Below are positions 26,631 through 55,761 of a stretch of 64,000 bases of DNA, piece after piece; positions within the stretch are counted from its first letter, which is position 1, and the number at the start of each line of letters is the position of its first letter. Source of the stretch: Bolinopsis microptera (taxonomy: Eukaryota > Ctenophora > Tentaculata > Lobata > Bolinopsidae); NCBI RefSeq assembly GCF_026151205.1, contig NC_087082.1:12263365-12327364 (forward strand), given 5' to 3'. The position numbers and the translations under genes are program-made. The notes beneath the pieces were generated by a model. The model ran no database searches. It was not told the origin of the DNA and saw only the letters and a list, made by a program, of their open reading frames with translations.

Positions 26631-28988
26631 ATGATGGACCACGACATTTCTCTTCATGATACTGATAATATCTCCTGCAGTGGTAACCTGCACTTGATCC
26701 TTCAGAATGGGTCCCAGCAATTACTCCTCTACAAACCTCTAGGTAGTTTACCAGACAACATTTATCTGATTTTAGCTCTAAATACATAAATACAACCTAG
26801 GAATCTATTATTTATGAACCATATTAATAAAGATGTTAACACTTCACGACTGATCTGATAACCTTCCGTGATCCGCAGAATACACGCTGGGCACTGTACA
26901 TCTGGTGTTAGGACTGTTATCAGTAACCTGTAACTCGATAGTTATTTGGAACTATCTGAAGGAAGGCGGTTTTAAAAATACCTGCTACTTTCTCTTCATC
27001 AATTTAGGCATGTTATAAACTTGTTTACTTAGGTACAAATACCTGCTACTTTCTCTTCATCAACTTAGGTATGTTATAAACTTGTTTACTTAGGTACAAA
27101 TCAACTAACTTTGGAGTTTTCCTCACATGATGATCACCTCATTGTATAGTTCCTCTCATATCACACTTCTTTAACAATTTAAAGGTACATCTAACTTAAT
27201 TGAATTGTATGAATTGTATGAATTGTATGAATTGTATGAATTGTATGAATTGTATGAATTGTATGAATTGTATGAATTGTATGAATTGTATGAATTGTAT
27301 GAATTGTATGAATTGTATGAATTGTATGAATTGTATGAATTGTATGAATTGTATGAATTGTATGAATTGTATGAATTGTATGATAGTTAGTTAGTGATTA
27401 GATACAATTTGTATATAATCACTAACTAACTACTAACTAATATCCATCTACCTATTTGCAGCTATAACGGACACAATCACGGGCTTGATCGGGTTCCACA
27501 AAGGATTCCACTTCTTCTATCTCCGAGAATGGTTCGACAAGGGTCTGTTAGATGATTTCCTGTGCAGACTGTTCGCTGGTATGCAGAGTTTAACTACTTT
27601 CTAACTTTCTATTCTATTATTTGTGCTGAGTTCGATTTAAAGTTGGAATAATAGTTATCATTCTTTGTTCTTGCATATTTTTATAGTGGATGTCTATTCA
27701 TTTTTTGGTCGTGGACCTCTCTCATTCTGTTATTTGGAATACAGTGAGGTAGATACGTTTAAATTTAGAGGTAAACTCATTTACTCTCAGTACTGCTAGC
27801 GTGGATGCCCTCAGCTACATTAGTGAACCTAGCTTTAGCCTCTCTGATTCGAGCAGTAGCGATAGTTAGACCGCTACAGTACAAACGGATCATTAATATT
27901 CGAACTACGTGGCTACTGGTCATCGGCTGTTGGGTAAGTACTAAGTTATTTAATAGTTTGTATTATTGAAAGACGATAGACATCATATACAAACCGTCAT
28001 ATACATACCGTCATATACATACCGTCATATACATACCGTCACGATATATAGTTTAATATATACATGAATGCCATCTTCAAGCAGAAGCAAGTTTGAAAAA
28101 TATCTATATTATCACATTTGTTATTCGTGTGGTTTACCTCGTGATAATTCGTGCATGCCTGAAATCTTACAACCGAATTCCCGCAGATGTTCACATTGGT
28201 GTCATATTGTATCCTGCCGATTCTGTTTGCTGAGTTCACTTTCAACTTCTTCTGGGCAAGTTGTCAGTACACATGGATAGCTCTGACTCATGAGGCGTAT
28301 GATGTTCTGGAGACTGTTCTCATGTACAGCCCTCTCTTAATTCTCATCTTCTCCAATGTTACAACAGGTAAATTGTCTGCCATATTTTCTAATAAAAACT
28401 AAACTGAGTGATTTTGTTTTTAAGAGATTTTGTGCTTCCACATAATCTTTCGATCACTCATGGATATTTAAAATATATTTTATCTCCTAATAGTAATACT
28501 AAGCACGTTATTACCTAATTTCCCTTCCAGGCTGGCACTTGTTCTACAACGTTGCTCCTTCACAACGCAGCAACTCAATTGTCTTGAAAAAGATAATATC
28601 GATGACAATCTCCTACCTGTTAGTATACTCCTTTGTCATAACATATGACTTAGTAATGGTTTTACGGACTATCGGCTACGACAGTGCATTTCATGAGACA
28701 ATCGGGAAACTAGAATGCAGTCCGAGGATATTTGCTTATATTATAAACTGGTACGATTTGAGCATGCTCATCAACAGCAACATGAACCCACTCATACACC
28801 TGATTTTCGGGAGGGAGTTCAAGAGACAGATCACTAAACGAGTCTCGACTGTCTCGAGAAAAGTCTCAAATGCGGTTTATTTTAACCATAAAAGAAAAAG
28901 TTTGGCTGAACTGAATATTATAGCTGAGGAGGGTGGACTAGTCCATGATAGGAGGAGAATGATCCGAAGAGCGAATACTTTTTTATGA
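26631..28988 (+). CDS. Class A-like G protein-coupled receptor, six exons
   Basis: Exons 26631-26742, 26879-27007, 27462-27578, 27791-27933, 28187-28367 and 28531-28988 join in frame to give 379 aa with seven hydrophobic segments. TM2 has NLAITD (class A NLAxxD, D2.50). From the disulfide Cys of FLCRLF to the Arg of LIRAVAIVRPLQY is exactly 25 residues, the class A C3.25-R3.50 spacing, which fixes the acceptor at 27790 rather than 27799. Asp3.49 is Ile and Tyr3.51 is Ala. TM7 has NSNMNPLIHLIF, so NPxxY ends in His. The extracellular loop 2 Cys is present (SCQYTW). The start is chosen because it gives phase 1 and an N-glycosylation-type N terminus; a TATAAAA lies just upstream at 26606. The second exon ends in a tandem duplication and needs a GC donor (27008). 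Ligand unknown. Confidence 0.85.
26976..27097. repeat. 61-bp tandem duplication across an exon-intron border
   Basis: Two 61-bp copies (26976-27036 and 27037-27097) differ at two bases. Each contains the end of receptor exon 2 plus the start of the intron. Copy 1 has AG|GCATGT at the border, copy 2 has AG|GTATGT. Confidence 0.9.
27202..27381. repeat. Perfect (GAATTGTAT)20 nonamer repeat
   Basis: Twenty exact copies of a 9-bp unit inside the second intron of the receptor gene. Because the period is a multiple of three it creates long artificial open frames (for example repeating Met-Asn-Cys), which are not genes. Confidence 0.97.
27984..28039. repeat. Four 14-bp tandem copies of CATATACATACCGT
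   Basis: One copy has two substitutions, the rest are identical. Located in the fourth intron of the receptor gene. Confidence 0.9.
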
Positions 28989-29284: not shown

Positions 29285-31813
29285 TTATAAAATTAAATCT
29301 AATGAAGTATATAAATGTGCGAAATCTTTTAATTTGTTTAATACGCCAAACATGTGTTTGTATTTAAACGTTCTCCCCTTCTCTGAGAATAGAACAACGA
29401 CACAATAAACTCGAGCACGTGATATTTGAAGATAAAGTGTTACCAGGTTATCTTTTGACTCTCTCATCTCCTGCAGCACAATTACTGCTGGCCACTCAGC
29501 TGAAAAACAATCTGCACCATCAAAAAGAGCTATCATGTCTTTCGTGTCACATCGTTTTTCAAGATTTTGAGAAACCAGATTCATTAGATCAGTAGTGATA
29601 TTGTCATGAACTATGCATACGTCAGAATTTTTCAATACGTCTCTCCCACAAAGTTTATTCAATTCATCGTTTATGATATTGATTGTCAATGGGTCGTTAT
29701 TAGTCTTCAAGATATGCACCACAGTTTTGGGGCCATGAATGAAATGGCCGGGTTTCTGTTCAGGTAGGACCATGTTTAAAGCATGCAAACTGTCAGAACA
29801 GAGTCCTGGACCTGTGTAGTATCCAACAAACTCGGCTCTAAGTATCGATAGGATGTTTGATAGATCGTAAGTATTTCTTAAATTTTTAGATACAATTTTC
29901 AATTGGCTCACCGATAAATGTTTAGCTAATGAACTAGTTAGGTTGAAGATATCCTCGTCTTGATTAGCAAACCAATACTGCGCAATGTCGCAAGCTATGC
30001 GAACAGTTTTAGATCGTGATAGTTCCAGCAGCGCAGCACACAGATCATCGTATTGTTCTGGTGTTTCATCGTATTCCATCAAAATCTGAATATCGTCAAC
30101 GAACACGTGATAACCGTGCAGCAAGCGGATTGTCTCCGTGAACCACGTGAGATTAACATACCCTGTTACTATCAAGATGATGACACGAACTGATGATTTT
30201 CCTTCCGATATTTGGAAGTGTAGATTTGAGGGTGTGTGTGTGTCCTCTGACACATCGCAAATTTCCAAATATTTTATGTCAGCGTTATTGAATCCCTCCT
30301 GATACAGTGAACAAGTGTTACTCTGCCCACAAAATCGGAATAATACTACCACATCAGCATCATTAGCTTGGACAATCTGTATAATCTTTCCACACAAGAT
30401 AACGGTTTTGCCAGCTCCTGCGGGTCCATTGATCCAAAGTAAATGTTCACTTGAATTAAACAAGCTGGTTTGCTGTAGAGTTAAGTTTGATACCCCAACG
30501 CAGTCTTTGATTACTGCAGGGGCTGAGATGACATTTGGGTTTTTACCTCTGAAAGTGAATTTTCCACTTCGTAATTTTTCACTAACGGTGACAATACACT
30601 GGGCCAAACTACACTTTTCTTTGTCAAACTTGTCCTTATCAGTACCCCAAATCGCAAGCAACATGTTTCTTGCTTTCTCATGTTTGTTGAGCAACTCTTC
30701 TTGTGAATCCTCTTCATCCAATATGACAGATCTAATGTTATTCTTCCGCCATACACTGAAACTATTAATTTCTTCGTCTGTTAGACAGAAATCTTTTGTT
30801 TTTTCCTCCTCGTCAGAACTTTCTTCTTCGCTTGTTTCCTTTTCAGAACTCCCTTCAACACCCTCTTTAAAACCACCTTCTAAACGCTCGTCTGCAGTTT
30901 CTTTTTCTGCTGTTCCTTCTGATCGGTCTCCAGTCATCTCATCTTTATTCAAATCACTCTCAGTTTTTTCTTCTTCTGTTTCTTCTAACAAGGTCCCTTC
31001 TTGATTGCAGTTAGTTCGGTCAATGGTGCACCACTCTCTTTGAGATACATATCTGCTCTTTGGTGGCGAATCTTGATTGTCAGTTTCGACTTCCAAAATA
31101 TCCGTAACGAAATTTACTTATTTTTCCTCTGCAAGTTTTATAAGATCCTCTTCAAAAATTATCGAAGACATTTCTGCATCCGTCAATTGAAACTCACTCT
31201 GGAATTGCCTGCTAAAATTTGGATACGCAGTGAAGTGAAGAACGGTAATATTTTCATCGATACAGTGAATCAGTTCCTCCATTCTTTTTCTCTGCTCCAG
31301 CGATTTGTGAAAGGTTCCACCCAAAGCTTGCTGCTGCTTTGCTCTGTTAATTTCACACTCCCCAACTTGGTTAATTTTAGATCCATCAACTGTTTCTTTC
31401 ACTCCAAGAGACGCCATGTCTTTTACTTCAATAATTACAGCATAGTTCTTGCCCAAGATCAAAAAGTCACATTCCCCTTCTTTGTTCGCAGCCTTTTTCC
31501 CTTTACACTTTGGACACCCTTTCCGGACATGAGTTTGGTTACACAAGCGATATTGGTGGTGAGTATACTCGAAGTTATGGAGAACAATGAAATGGTCGTC
31601 AACTTTTTCCAGAGCACAGTAAACCCTGACTTCAGCTTCGTAGTTTGACTGTAGTTGTCTGTCGTTCTTGAAATTAACTCCAGTATGATCTTTGTTTGGA
31701 TATACATCAATGAAAGTTTGTTATGGGGCTCTTGGAAACATGATTGGGGTACTTTCGGTCGACAAACAAAAAGTTTCGAAGATTTCCTTTCCATTCTTTA
31801 AATATTTGTCCAT
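29285..31813 (-). pseudogene. NERD nuclease + helicase-like P-loop protein, frame interrupted by two TAA codons
   Basis: From ATG at 31813 to the stop at 29285 one frame of 843 codons is open except for TAA at 31721-31723 (codon 31) and TAA at 31118-31120. Both fall in the same frame and there is no frameshift. The N-terminal part matches a NERD (nuclease-related) domain: EYTHHQYR, a CPKC pair, GECDFLIL and then IIEVKD, giving the D...ExK triad of PD-(D/E)XK folds. A Glu/Ser-rich acidic linker follows. The C-terminal part has Walker A NGPAGAGKT (about 30405-30432), a Walker B-like FVDDIQ, a motif IV-like NLRNTYDL and LQISRARVYCVV, as in superfamily 1 (UvrD-like) helicases. NERD-helicase fusions are known in bacteria, and related proteins occur in marine invertebrates. 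Most likely a recently inactivated gene or allele; readthrough or short cryptic introns are alternatives. A splice-acceptor-like TTTTATTTTCAG just upstream of the ATG suggests a 5' UTR exon. Confidence 0.75.
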
Positions 31814-40388: not shown

Positions 40389-40653
40389 ATCATATTACAT
40401 TGCTACGTAATTAGATTGATCCGAGATGTGCACCGTGTTACTTTTAGGCGGCGGCGGTCGACCGCGGTATGACTATTAGATATTATACAAACCGCGGTCT
40501 GTGAGGACATTTCGATGAATTATAGGATATTATATGTTATAGCTTTATAGCTGGATTATGGAACAAAAAAAATAATACAACAGTTTTCAATGGCGGCGGC
40601 GAATCGCGGTAGTGCATATCTCTGATATTAGATTCAGGACAATACTGGAGGAA

Positions 40654-41310
40654 GAGGAGGAGGAGGAGGAGGAGGAGGAGGAGGAGGAGGAGGAGGAGGA
40701 GGAGGAGGAGGAGGAGGAGGAGGAGGAGGAGGAGGAGGAGGAGGAGGAGGAGGAGGAGGAGGAGGAGGAGGAGGAGGAGGAGGAGGAGGAGGAGGAGGAG
40801 GAGGAGGAGGAGGAGGAGGAGGAGGAGGAGGAGGAGGAGGAGGAGGAGGAGGAGGAGGAGGAGGAGGAGGAGGAGGAGGAGGAGGAGGAGGAGGAGGAGG
40901 AGGAGGAGGAGGAGGAGGAGGAGGAGGAGGAGGAGGAGGAGGAGGAGGAGGAGGAGGAGGAGGAGGAGGAGGAGGAGGAGGAGGAGGAGGAGGAGGAGGA
41001 GGAGGAGGAGGAGGAGGAGGAGGAGGAGGAGGAGGAGGAGGAGGAGGAGGAGGAGGAGGAGGAGGAGGAGGAGGAGGAGGAGGAGGAGGAGGAGGAGGAG
41101 GAGGAGGAGGAGGAGGAGGAGGAGGAGGAGGAGGAGGAGGAGGAGGAGGAGGAGGAGGAGGAGGAGGAGGAGGAGGAGGAGGAGGAGGAGGAGGAGGAGG
41201 AGGAGGAGGAGGAGGAGGAGGAGGAGGAGGAGGAGGAGGAGGAGGAGGAGGAGGAGGAGGAGGAGGAGGAGGAGGAGGAGGAGGAGGAGGAGGAGGAGGA
41301 GGAGGAGGAG
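40654..41310. repeat. Perfect (GGA)219 trinucleotide repeat
   Basis: 657 bp of uninterrupted GAG/GGA repeat, preceded by an imperfect start (40646-40653). All-purine on one strand, so prone to triplex or G-quadruplex structures. The poly-Glu, poly-Ser and poly-Pro frames across it are artefacts with no promoter, splice or homology support. The exact copy number should be treated with caution because such tracts assemble poorly. Confidence 0.97.
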
Positions 41311-43419: not shown

Positions 43420-44148
43420 ATGTTAATATTAGAAGTTTGTGTCGACAGTGCTGAATCTGCTATTCTGGCTGAAAAGGGTGGAGCCAAGCGCATAGAATTG
43501 TGTTCTGTCTTAGAACTTGGTGGTTTAACACCATCGGCTGGACTCCTTCAAGAAGTAAAAAAGCATGTTCGAATCCCAGTATTTTGTATGATTCGATGCC
43601 GTTCGGGTGATTTCTTTTACAATTCATATGAGATTTCAACCATGATTTCTGATGCTCAAGAACTTTCTAAACATGGTGCGGATGGCTTTGTCTTTGGATT
43701 TCTAGATCGTAACAAAGCTTTAGACACAAACTCGTGTGAACTGTTAATAAAATCTCTTTCAAAAGATTATCCATGCACTCTTCATCGTGCATTCGATTTT
43801 ATTCCAATTGATTCTGGTACTCTTCGAACTGTAAAACAAATTGGATTTTCGAGGATTTTGACCACTGGTGGTGGTCCTGATGTCTCTTCTAGTTTTGATG
43901 AACTCAAAATATTGTTTATCCAATCCGAGGAGGTTGGAATCACAATTTTGCCTGGAGGGGGCGTTAATGAGTCGAATATAGCCACATTAAAAGAAATTGG
44001 CTTCAAGGAAGTGCATTCCTCATGTAGTGTGTATAGCTATGATGGTGATTATGGCACACTTTTTAATAATCCATTGCCAAATGGCAAAAGAAGGGTTGTT
44101 TGCTTGGATAAAGTTGAGACTCTGTGTGGTAAATTAAATGCTATTTAA
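43420..44148 (+). CDS. CUTC: CutC family copper homeostasis protein
   Basis: An intronless 242-aa frame covers the CutC TIM-barrel family: LEVCVDSAESAILAEKGGAK, RIELCS..LGGLTPS at the N terminus, RCRSGDFFYN (family R-x-R-x-G-D-F-Y), DGFVFGFL, TLHRAFD and RILTTGGGP, and a late GGGVN. These are the most conserved family blocks, in order. Human CUTC is about 270 aa and the copy here lacks only an N-terminal extension. The protein binds Cu(I) and is implicated in copper tolerance; no enzymatic reaction is established. The absence of introns in an intron-rich neighbourhood suggests a retrocopy or intron loss. A LINE starts directly at the stop codon, so the natural 3' UTR appears displaced, and the last residues may be altered. 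Confidence 0.92.
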   Translation: MLILEVCVDSAESAILAEKGGAKRIELCSVLELGGLTPSAGLLQEVKKHVRIPVFCMIRCRSGDFFYNSYEISTMISDAQELSKHGADGFVFGFLDRNKALDTNSCELLIKSLSKDYPCTLHRAFDFIPIDSGTLRTVKQIGFSRILTTGGGPDVSSSFDELKILFIQSEEVGITILPGGGVNESNIATLKEIGFKEVHSSCSVYSYDGDYGTLFNNPLPNGKRRVVCLDKVETLCGKLNAI

Positions 44149-45500
44149 CTATTGACAAGAAAACTAAAGTTGTTCTTTTACTTCTAGATTTGAGTGCTGC
44201 CTTTGATACTGTCAATCACCCAAGATTAATCAAGAAGCTAAGATCTGCTTATGGCATTACAGGCATTGCTCTTACATGGATCAGGTCCTACTTGGCTAAC
44301 CGTTCATTTTGTGTCAAAGTCAAGGATTCGTCTTCCTCAGCAACTGTTCTTGAGATAGGTGTACCACAAGGTTCAATCCTTGGCCCCCTGCTATTCATAT
44401 TGTACACCAAAGATCTTGAGAACATTGCAAGTATGCATGGGTGCTGTATTCATTTGTATGCTGATGACACCCAGCTGTATTTCACACTTGATTCTGATGA
44501 CCCATCACAGCTAGAGCACAATATGGAACACTGTATGTCTGATATCAAGAAATGGATGACAAACAATTTCCTTCAACTGAATTCTTCTAAGACTGAAGTC
44601 ATCGTTATATCCTCTAAATTTGACTCAAAAAATATTCCAGCCTCTCTACAGATCGTTAAGCATCAAGAGCCACATGTTGTTAGTGGAACTGTGAAGAGTC
44701 TTGGGCTGTATTTGGACAGTTATCTTTCAATGAGTGATCAGATTACGTCAGTGGTTCAAGCATGTAATATTCAGATCAGAAATTTGTGGTTTATTGCATC
44801 AAAACTGTCTTTTAACCTTAAGATTCAGCTTGTTCATGCTCTAGTACTCTCTGAAATTGATTATTGCAATAGCGTATATTTTGGACTGAGCTCTTATGAT
44901 TTAAGTCGTTTACAGAAGGTGCAAAATTCTGCTGTAAGATTTATTTTCGGGAGAGGAAGAAAGGCACACACTACTCCACTACTTAAGAAAGTTCATTTTC
45001 TACCAGTTAGATTTAGAATAGATTTTAAGATTGCCCTACTTGCCTACAAGTGTTTAAATAATATAGCTCCTCCTTACTTAAAAGAGTTGATATCTCCTAG
45101 GCAGCAAAGTTTTAAAAATGTACGTCTTGATAATGATTATTTTTACCTTAGTTTTCCGCCCTCTCCTAACTATGTAAACACAGAGAAAGCTTTTAGTCAC
45201 TGTGCAGTTAAAGTATTTAATTCCTTGCCATACGACATAAGATCAGCTGAGTCAGTTACATCTTTCAAGACCAAACTTAAAACATACTTCTTTTCTCTAG
45301 CATTTGATTGATTTTGCATTTACATAGGTAAAATGAACTTGTCATGTCTAATTTTCAATTAAACTAAGCTCAGTTAATGTAAGAGCCGCTTTAGAAAGCA
45401 CTGGAGTTTATCTCCAGGATTAAATTATATCGAGTTATATGATTTAGCTATAAGGCGGTTTATAAATGTTGTATTTATTATTTATTATTATTTAGCAGCA
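44149..45500 (+). mobile_element. 5'-truncated LINE (CR1/L2/jockey-like) with intact reverse transcriptase C-terminal half
   Basis: Directly after the cutC stop a different frame reads VVLLLLDLSAAFDTVNH, GVPQGSILGPLLF, YADDTQLYF (catalytic YADD), LNSSKTEVI and LGLYLD, then the tail SEIDYCNSVYFGL, LQKVQNSAVRFIF and a terminal FKTKLKTYFF, ending at 45311. These are RT motifs A to E plus the post-RT tail. The frame is uninterrupted over about 387 codons. The 3' UTR ends in GGCGGTTTATAAATGTTG followed by irregular ATT repeats, as in CR1/L2-type 3' ends. The endonuclease and first RT motifs are missing, the usual result of incomplete reverse transcription. The open frame suggests a young insertion. 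Confidence 0.9.
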
Positions 45501-53770: not shown

Positions 53771-54285
53771 GGTTTTAGTTACCCCGTACCCGGCCCTTCG
53801 CAGTTAGCAGTGTAGTTTTGGAGTGCCGAGTGTAGTTACCTTTTGTAATTTATTGTGTTGAATTACTTCGTGGTGGCAGTGATTTGTTGAAATTAGTTTT
53901 AAATTAGGAGGTCTATTATTAAAGACGTATGTATTAAAGTATCGTGTAAGCAGTTTAGAAAGTGCCCTTATTTCAGTTACAGTCATTAATTTATTACTAC
54001 ATACAACTACTACAATTTGCGTATGAATCTGTATTAAAACTCAATTTACATTCGTTAATTAATTTAGGCGGATTACGCTTTGTAATGAATTTTTCATTCT
54101 GCTTAACTTTATTTTTGCAACTTGTTTATTGTAAGCTGTTGTTTTTTAATAGATTTTAAAAGGTTTAATTTTGTTAGAATTTTGATTTGTATTTTCATCT
54201 TTGTTTTCATCTTACTATTTCATATTATTTATTTCTTTTCTCGTTACCGTTCTGCAAAGACATAATTTACCTTCACTTCAGGAAT

Positions 54286-55761
54286 ATGTCTGGGCAGTCA
54301 TCCAAACGTCGCAGAGTTGATCCTCCGTCAAAGCAATCAAAATTACATCACTTCTTTTCAAAACCTGTTGGAAGAACTGAGAAATTGTTATCCCAGGTTT
54401 CATCTCAGAAGTTAAGAAAAGATGGTCTGAAAAATTATAGGTGTTTGTTAAAGGAGAAAAGTAGTGGCTTATCGTCAACTCAGTCCTACGTAAAACCCAG
54501 CTCTTTTGATAAAGGTGATCCGGGAAATATATCCTCATGTAAGAAAGAGTCCGCCTTTAAAAAGCGATCAATTTTAAGAGACATCGGAAATTCCTCGCCG
54601 AATGTAGAAAGTTCAGTTGATAACAAGACAATTCCAAAAGGTGACAACTTGTTTTCACAGAATGATGGTTATTTTCTCAAGCAGTCTGGTGAAAGATTAG
54701 AAACTTCTCCAATCCCAAATCAGCCACGTTCTCCAGCCGACTTTCTTGTTAATCATGATGATTCTCAGCTGGACGAGCTGAACACAAATGATGTCATGAC
54801 CATTACTCACAGTCCAATCATCGGTCAAATAAAACTCTATTCTGATCTCACGGAGCAATCTCTAAACTCGCATGATGTTGACACCTTACCATTTAGTGCA
54901 GTGATCAGCAAACCGTCTGTAGTAGCACCCAACACTTCTACTGTCAGTCAACATTCTGAGTTTCCTGTTTCAGATTATCCTGCGATTGTATCTGGTTTAA
55001 ACGAGGAAACATTGGAGGAACTAAATACCAGTGATGTTGAAACAGTTCCATTTAGTTTTGTTATTGGCAAATATCTGACGGAGACAACTCCTTCTAAGTC
55101 AACATCGGCAGAAGAGCGATATGACTCACCAACGAAGGAGGAACTTTCTGAGATGAATACTGCTGATGTCATGACCCTTCCGTGCAGCTTTGTTATTGGA
55201 AAAGTAAAGAAGTCCGTTGAAACAACAACTTCTATCGGAAATAAAACCTCTGAACATACAACTGAAGAAGACACATCAGTTGTTAAAGCTGAGAAGGATA
55301 AGAAAGTTCAAGTGCCTGAAAGAGGTCCTAAAAGCTCGGTCACTTCCCCACAAGCAGACTCTTTGTACATGGACCGAGTTTGGGCCATGTTCGAATCTGA
55401 CTCGGATGAGGAGCAAGAAGACCGGATGACTACAAACATGTCAGCTGATAAACTTAAAGTAACCATAAACAAGCATAGTTTGGGCCCTCCAATTAATAGC
55501 CAAGTCATGAATTCAAAAGATCAGCAACTTTCTCAACTTGAAGAGTTAAATACAGCGGATGTTTCGACTCTGCCATCTAGTCCTATTATTGGACAGATGA
55601 CTTTAAAGACTTCTCCTCCAGGCGTAGGGTCAGAGTATTCTGGTTCTCAGAATTCGGATGATACTGTTTGTAAAGAGGATAGTTTTGTTGAAGAAGACTC
55701 TTTGACTTTAGACAACTTTCACGGGATGAGGGGACCTAATTCTATTTTCATGGGAACTTGA
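54286..55761 (+). CDS. Nuclear PIP-box protein with five copies of a ~20-aa repeat motif
   Basis: I start at ATG 54286 because an acceptor-like CTTCACTTCAG lies just before it and because the residues upstream in this frame are hydrophobic and unlike the rest. The 491-aa product is hydrophilic. Residues 7-10 are KRRR, a likely nuclear signal. Residues 17-24 are QSKLHHFF, an exact PCNA-interacting PIP box (Q-x-x-[ILM]-x-x-F-F). The body carries a motif with consensus ELNTxDVxTLPxSxVIGK at residues 162-181, 193-209 (degenerate), 243-262, 287-306 and 418-437. Between them the sequence is Ser/Thr-rich and looks disordered, with an acidic ESDSDEEQED segment near 377. No folded domain was recognised. 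Probably a replication- or repair-linked scaffold recruited to PCNA, with the repeats as a multivalent docking array. I do not recognise the family. Confidence 0.82.
   Translation: MSGQSSKRRRVDPPSKQSKLHHFFSKPVGRTEKLLSQVSSQKLRKDGLKNYRCLLKEKSSGLSSTQSYVKPSSFDKGDPGNISSCKKESAFKKRSILRDIGNSSPNVESSVDNKTIPKGDNLFSQNDGYFLKQSGERLETSPIPNQPRSPADFLVNHDDSQLDELNTNDVMTITHSPIIGQIKLYSDLTEQSLNSHDVDTLPFSAVISKPSVVAPNTSTVSQHSEFPVSDYPAIVSGLNEETLEELNTSDVETVPFSFVIGKYLTETTPSKSTSAEERYDSPTKEELSEMNTADVMTLPCSFVIGKVKKSVETTTSIGNKTSEHTTEEDTSVVKAEKDKKVQVPERGPKSSVTSPQADSLYMDRVWAMFESDSDEEQEDRMTTNMSADKLKVTINKHSLGPPINSQVMNSKDQQLSQLEELNTADVSTLPSSPIIGQMTLKTSPPGVGSEYSGSQNSDDTVCKEDSFVEEDSLTLDNFHGMRGPNSIFMGT

Follow-up and report, generated by a model that had tools for sequence, protein, structure and literature searches.

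A 491-residue protein with a canonical PIP box and five copies of an ELNTxDV-type motif: a candidate PCNA-tethered scaffold

The clients of PCNA include many enzymes and small regulators, and disordered proteins with a PIP box are already known among them. PAF15/PCLAF (PF15715), for instance, is a short disordered client with a PIP box, and CAF-1 p150 (CHAF1A) is a nuclear, PIP-bearing protein with long disordered parts. Multi-copy docking in disordered scaffolds is likewise familiar. Claspin, a disordered fork protein, has several phospho-regulated copies of a Chk1-docking motif; KNL1, a disordered scaffold of the kinetochore and not of PCNA, displays degenerate docking motifs at intervals (the MELT arrays); and the BRC repeats of BRCA2 present a partner-docking motif in spaced repeats.

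The 491-aa protein described here is encoded in a window of 64,000 nucleotides, the whole stretch of DNA that was analysed. It has the PIP box in common with PAF15, but it also carries a motif array, which PAF15 is not known to have, and unlike CAF-1 p150 it lacks the dimerisation region PF12253. Moreover, neither the Chk1-binding LC[ST]GxF of Claspin, nor the MELT pattern M-[D/E]-[LIVM]-[S/T] of KNL1, nor the FxTA/FxxA core of the BRC repeats occurs in the protein. We propose, giving the idea roughly even credence, that the protein is a nuclear, largely disordered scaffold tethered to PCNA, with motifs that repeatedly dock a single partner. The features on which this proposal draws are as follows.

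54279..54281, plus strand: CAG acceptor-like trinucleotide, 4 bases 5' of the ATG and after a T-rich stretch (read from the sequence)
54286..55761, plus strand: whole coding sequence, 491 aa and TGA, single exon (ORF reading)
54304..54315, plus strand: KRRR basic cluster, aa 7-10, a possible nuclear localisation signal (sequence)
54334..54357, plus strand: PIP box QSKLHHFF, aa 17-24 (pattern match)
54391..54483, plus strand: three SQ/TQ sites, aa 36, 40 and 65 (sequence)
54772..54837, plus strand: motif copy 1, DELNTNDVMTITHSPIIGQIKL, aa 163-184, SP type (self-comparison)
54856..54921, plus strand: motif copy 2, degenerate, QSLNSHDVDTLPFSAVISKPSV, aa 191-212 (self-comparison)
55015..55080, plus strand: motif copy 3, EELNTSDVETVPFSFVIGKYLT, aa 244-265, SF type (self-comparison)
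55147..55212, plus strand: motif copy 4, SEMNTADVMTLPCSFVIGKVKK, aa 288-309, SF type (self-comparison)
55393..55422, plus strand: acidic stretch ESDSDEEQED, aa 370-379 (sequence)
55540..55605, plus strand: motif copy 5, EELNTADVSTLPSSPIIGQMTL, aa 419-440, SP type (self-comparison)

The reading frame runs from the ATG at 54286 to the TGA ending at 55761 with zero internal stops. Codon usage fails to set the coding frame apart from alternative readings of this DNA (0.047 for the ORF frame, against 0.008, 0.056 and 0.063 for the reverse complement), and the measure was left unused. This failure would suit a non-functional ORF, but 491 open codons and an acceptor-like site 5' of the ATG speak against one, and we consider it hardly credible that the locus is either such an ORF or the product of a recent repeat expansion. 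The CAG upstream of the ATG may possibly be the acceptor of a 5'UTR intron or of a spliced leader. A CAG or TAG lies within 5 bases before the ATG at five of the eight plus-strand ORF starts printed for the window (43420, 49588, 52828, 54286 and 56476), and among these five a pyrimidine-rich run beside it was seen by eye at 54286 and 56476 only; the arrangement is compatible with spliced-leader trans-splicing or with 5'UTR introns. In two spliced genes of the host genome the introns look short by eye. The gene appears to be of invertebrate type, and its product would be nuclear and is probably floppy.

An exact PCNA-binding box next to a basic nuclear signal had been predicted for the extreme N terminus, and the box is present there together with a basic cluster that is a possible nuclear signal. 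QSKLHHFF fits the canonical Q-x-x-[LIVM]-x-x-aromatic-aromatic pattern by which PCNA clients are recognised. A CRL4-Cdt2 PIP degron has TD within the PIP box and a basic residue downstream, whereas QSKLHHFF has HH where TD would stand. The pattern Q..[LIVM]..[FWY][FWY] matches 19 times when the window is translated in all six frames, QSKLHHFF at aa 17 being one of these. Among the other 18, 16 have a stop inside the match or at most 10 residues away, one (minus strand, 47435) has none, and one is listed without its letters. Since the pattern is this common in raw translation, it is the position of QSKLHHFF that matters. The PIP box might be a chance match, leaving a real motif array unconnected with replication: 18 further matches lie in the window, and a match falls somewhere in 1.0% of 100,000 shuffles of the protein. 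We hold this to be quite improbable, because the box is canonical in form, lies in a basic neighbourhood and sits where a match falls in 0.064% of the same number of shuffles (inside the first 30 residues).

The charge of the region points the same way. By eye, the seven-residue flanks of the box (RVDPPSK and SKPVGRT) sum to a net charge of +3; the first 120 aa carry +15 and the remainder -32. According to a published study, positive charge in the flanks can shift PIP-box affinity across four orders of magnitude, and the positive flanks found here are in line with that effect (PMC6881253). FoldIndex is -0.34 for the region around the box (aa 1-51), where pLDDT is low in a model made without an alignment. 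The same genome holds a PCNA gene, a 262-aa ORF whose residues 1-259 align with PDB chain 1axc_A (E 3.5e-88). From the canonical form and N-terminal position of the PIP box, from its positive flanks and from this PCNA gene, we soundly infer that the protein would bind PCNA through the box and be tethered by it.

The second predicted feature, five spaced copies of a motif of about 20 aa with one of them degenerate, is borne out by self-comparison. The consensus reads [E/D]-L-N-T-x-D-V-x-T-L-P-x-S-x-[V/I]-I-G-[K/Q], and all five copies agree in six columns (N, D, V, T, S and I). The top ungapped 20-residue self-match scores 71, whereas none in 60 shuffles exceeded 43. A score of 30 or more is reached by 10 self-match diagonals, as against 4 or fewer in the same shuffles. 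Under a matrix derived from the five copies, the copies themselves reach 47.6 to 58.0 bits, values inflated by this derivation; the next position in the protein scores -1.7 and the best of 300 shuffles at most 14.0, and a scan with this matrix found no sixth copy within the protein. Among 20,000 random sets of five windows none had more than one invariant column; the control is lenient in that the real copies were chosen for their likeness. The degenerate copy 2 has NS in place of NT and ISK in place of IGK, its C-terminal part being SAVISK, and copy 1 reads TITH where the remaining copies have T-L/V-P-x.

Two subtypes can be recognised among the copies. SPIIGQ is common to copies 1 and 5 and SFVIGK to copies 3 and 4, and identity is highest in the same pairs (14/22 for 1-5 and 13/22 for 3-4). 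The linkers are unrelated: over the ten pairs, the twenty residues flanking a copy on each side have between 0 and 4 of 20 places in common. Of 38 other linear-motif patterns scanned over the protein, none matches all five copies. Single copies overlap a few of them: an SxIP-like STLP and an SSP lie in copy 5, and of three USP7-like strings AVIS lies in copy 2, ADVS in copy 5 and EELS at the edge of copy 4, where it touches the first residue. A B56-like LSQLEE reaches just into copy 5 at its start. That the motif might be a second site for PCNA was also considered and is ruled out, as the PIP and APIM patterns are absent from it.

The codons of the copies bear on their age. Among residues that are identical between copies and allow a synonymous choice (108 pairs over the ten copy pairs), 62 differ in codon compared with 70.3 expected by random codon choice, the expectation being drawn from the codon usage of seven window ORFs that include this one. 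Two pairs fall well below expectation (2/7 against 4.7 for 1-2 and 4/11 against 7.1 for 2-3); all these counts come from 22-codon windows and from pairs that are mutually non-independent. Such near-random codon choice at identical residues suggests that the copies are probably old and have been kept by selection on the protein. Internal repeats can have a neutral origin, and a recent expansion would be one way to obtain them, but it is at odds with linkers that are unrelated and with high synonymous divergence alongside conserved residues. The same two observations, with the residues of six columns invariant, support the view that the repeated motif is functional.

Outside the motifs the protein was predicted to be disordered. 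Serine makes up 15.3% of the residues, and a single-sequence AlphaFold2 model has a mean pLDDT of 35.1 with zero residues at 70 or above. FoldIndex is borderline: the whole protein scores -0.018. Negative values come from 13 of the 18 windows and 0.00 from one, and the four positive windows (aa 176-226, 201-251, 226-276 and 401-451) overlap copies 1, 2, 3 and 5. Composition and the very low-confidence model thus suggest a disordered chain, with FoldIndex giving a less clear answer. Two helices in the model (aa 240-248 and 411-421) run into the starts of copies 3 and 5, both at very low confidence.

Phosphorylation control of the motif had also been raised. Copies 1 and 5 have S-P, for which such control is possible, while copies 2, 3 and 4 have none, and the S-P of copies 1 and 5 does not match the fuller CDK pattern S/T-P-x(1,2)-K/R. 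Over the whole protein there is no enrichment of SP/TP (9 compared with 7.2 expected, a level found in 27% of shuffles). SQ/TQ sites number 9 compared with 4.8 expected, and at least 9 occur in 3.3% of shuffles.

Searches for relatives gave nothing above chance. In Pfam the best match is UPF0767 (E 0.55), and among PDB sequences the best E values are 1.4 for the whole protein, 1.2 for a five-copy profile (a carbazole dioxygenase) and 1 for the N-terminal piece; we reject these weak matches, with E between 0.55 and 1.4, as chance. Pattern matches were found in one stretch of a viral and 14 stretches of a prokaryotic collection, none of which encodes a relative at the reach of the scan, which detects close relatives only. 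This absence is as expected for an animal gene. In the genome of the host (264,652,675 bases, 232 contigs) the sole match at E<=0.001 is the gene itself, all 35 first-look candidates having been scored; single weak motif copies in other genes are possible at that threshold. Among the titles and abstracts listed from the open-licence literature, none describes a PIP protein with this motif, and six peptide strings looked for are absent from the open-licence papers. The prediction that the protein belongs to no known family hence holds within Pfam, the PDB sequences and the viral and prokaryotic collections.

Identity with the two nearest PIP-bearing systems is ruled out. The protein matches neither PF15715 nor PF12253 in the Pfam search, and both models find matches elsewhere in the same genome: PF15715 has four at E<=1, of which the two over the cut-off are both on contig C7, and PF12253 has one on contig C5. 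In controls over 14 genomes PCNA_C matched 4, PF15715 none and PF12253 none. The two PF15715 matches below the cut-off (L005 and L006) have equal scores (E 0.0425), and the stretch of L005 contains a histone H3 ORF. The two on C7 (L003 and L004) lie about 288 kb apart on opposite strands and are possibly a duplicated gene. L003 is probably an inner exon, as no ATG-, GTG- or TTG-started ORF of at least 50 aa is found at the match.

These searches also bear on another explanation, that the protein is orthologous to a known replication or repair factor (e.g. Claspin or Treslin) but has diverged too fast for Pfam-type models to recognise it. Disordered replication factors can diverge past profile detection, and the comparison covered Pfam, the PDB sequences, the viral and prokaryotic collections and the host genome. 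We nevertheless regard such an orthologue as fairly unlikely, given the chance-level Pfam and PDB matches, the separate PAF15 and CAF-1 p150 matches in the same genome and the absence of the Claspin CKB, BRC, MELT and APIM patterns.

A multivalent docking array and a role as a replication-fork scaffold are what we infer from the sequence for the protein as a whole. In the proposed mechanism the N-terminal PIP box would seat in the PCNA pocket and anchor a tail of about 470 residues. The tail would present the five motif copies, most likely docking one and the same partner repeatedly, and in this way the partner may be concentrated at replication or repair sites. Going by the weak model, LEELNT might form a short helix when each motif binds, with an extended S-x-V-I-G segment after it. 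A proline-directed kinase could control copies 1 and 5 through their S-P, and damage-dependent control might come from the SQ/TQ sites that lie near the N terminus and three residues ahead of these two copies.

The motifs could instead be self-association 'stickers' by which the protein oligomerises or condenses on PCNA without a separate docking partner. Several spaced hydrophobic-polar segments within a Ser-rich chain would suit this. Stickers tolerate loose sequence, and the six residues that never vary (N, D, V, T, S and I) look more like the ligand of a specific pocket; hence we consider self-association distinctly unlikely, and docking of a partner remains the preferred reading. If this reading is true, a clamp-tethered protein with five motifs would offer a direct route for loading a partner at the fork in many copies, and its motif is a ready bait for finding that partner. 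Tentatively, and with more doubt than confidence, the protein may represent a metazoan family, so far undescribed, of scaffolds that are tethered to PCNA and have a docking motif of their own; each molecule would hold up to five copies of the partner, and the SP and SF subtypes would correspond to regulated and constitutive docking. If the host animal is early-branching, the protein would also shed light on changes in the set of PCNA clients among animals.

Several other features were seen in the window. On the minus strand, an ORF with an NPHP3_N match (29285-31096, E 4.2e-6) lies just downstream of a NERD-like, nuclease-related ORF (31118-31546; E 9.3e-4, 20.1 bits compared with a cut-off of 22.1), and 29285-31546 is possibly a single gene for a nuclease and NTPase. 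A single-ORF CutC gene occupies 43420-44148, and a reverse-transcriptase ORF (44190-45311; RVT_1, E 1.7e-20) starts 41 bases past it. Two tandem arrays are also present: a 9-bp unit, TGAATTGTA, is repeated 20.3 times at 27201-27383 with 100% matches, and a GGA triplet array at 40647-41310 comprises 221.3 copies with 99% matches.
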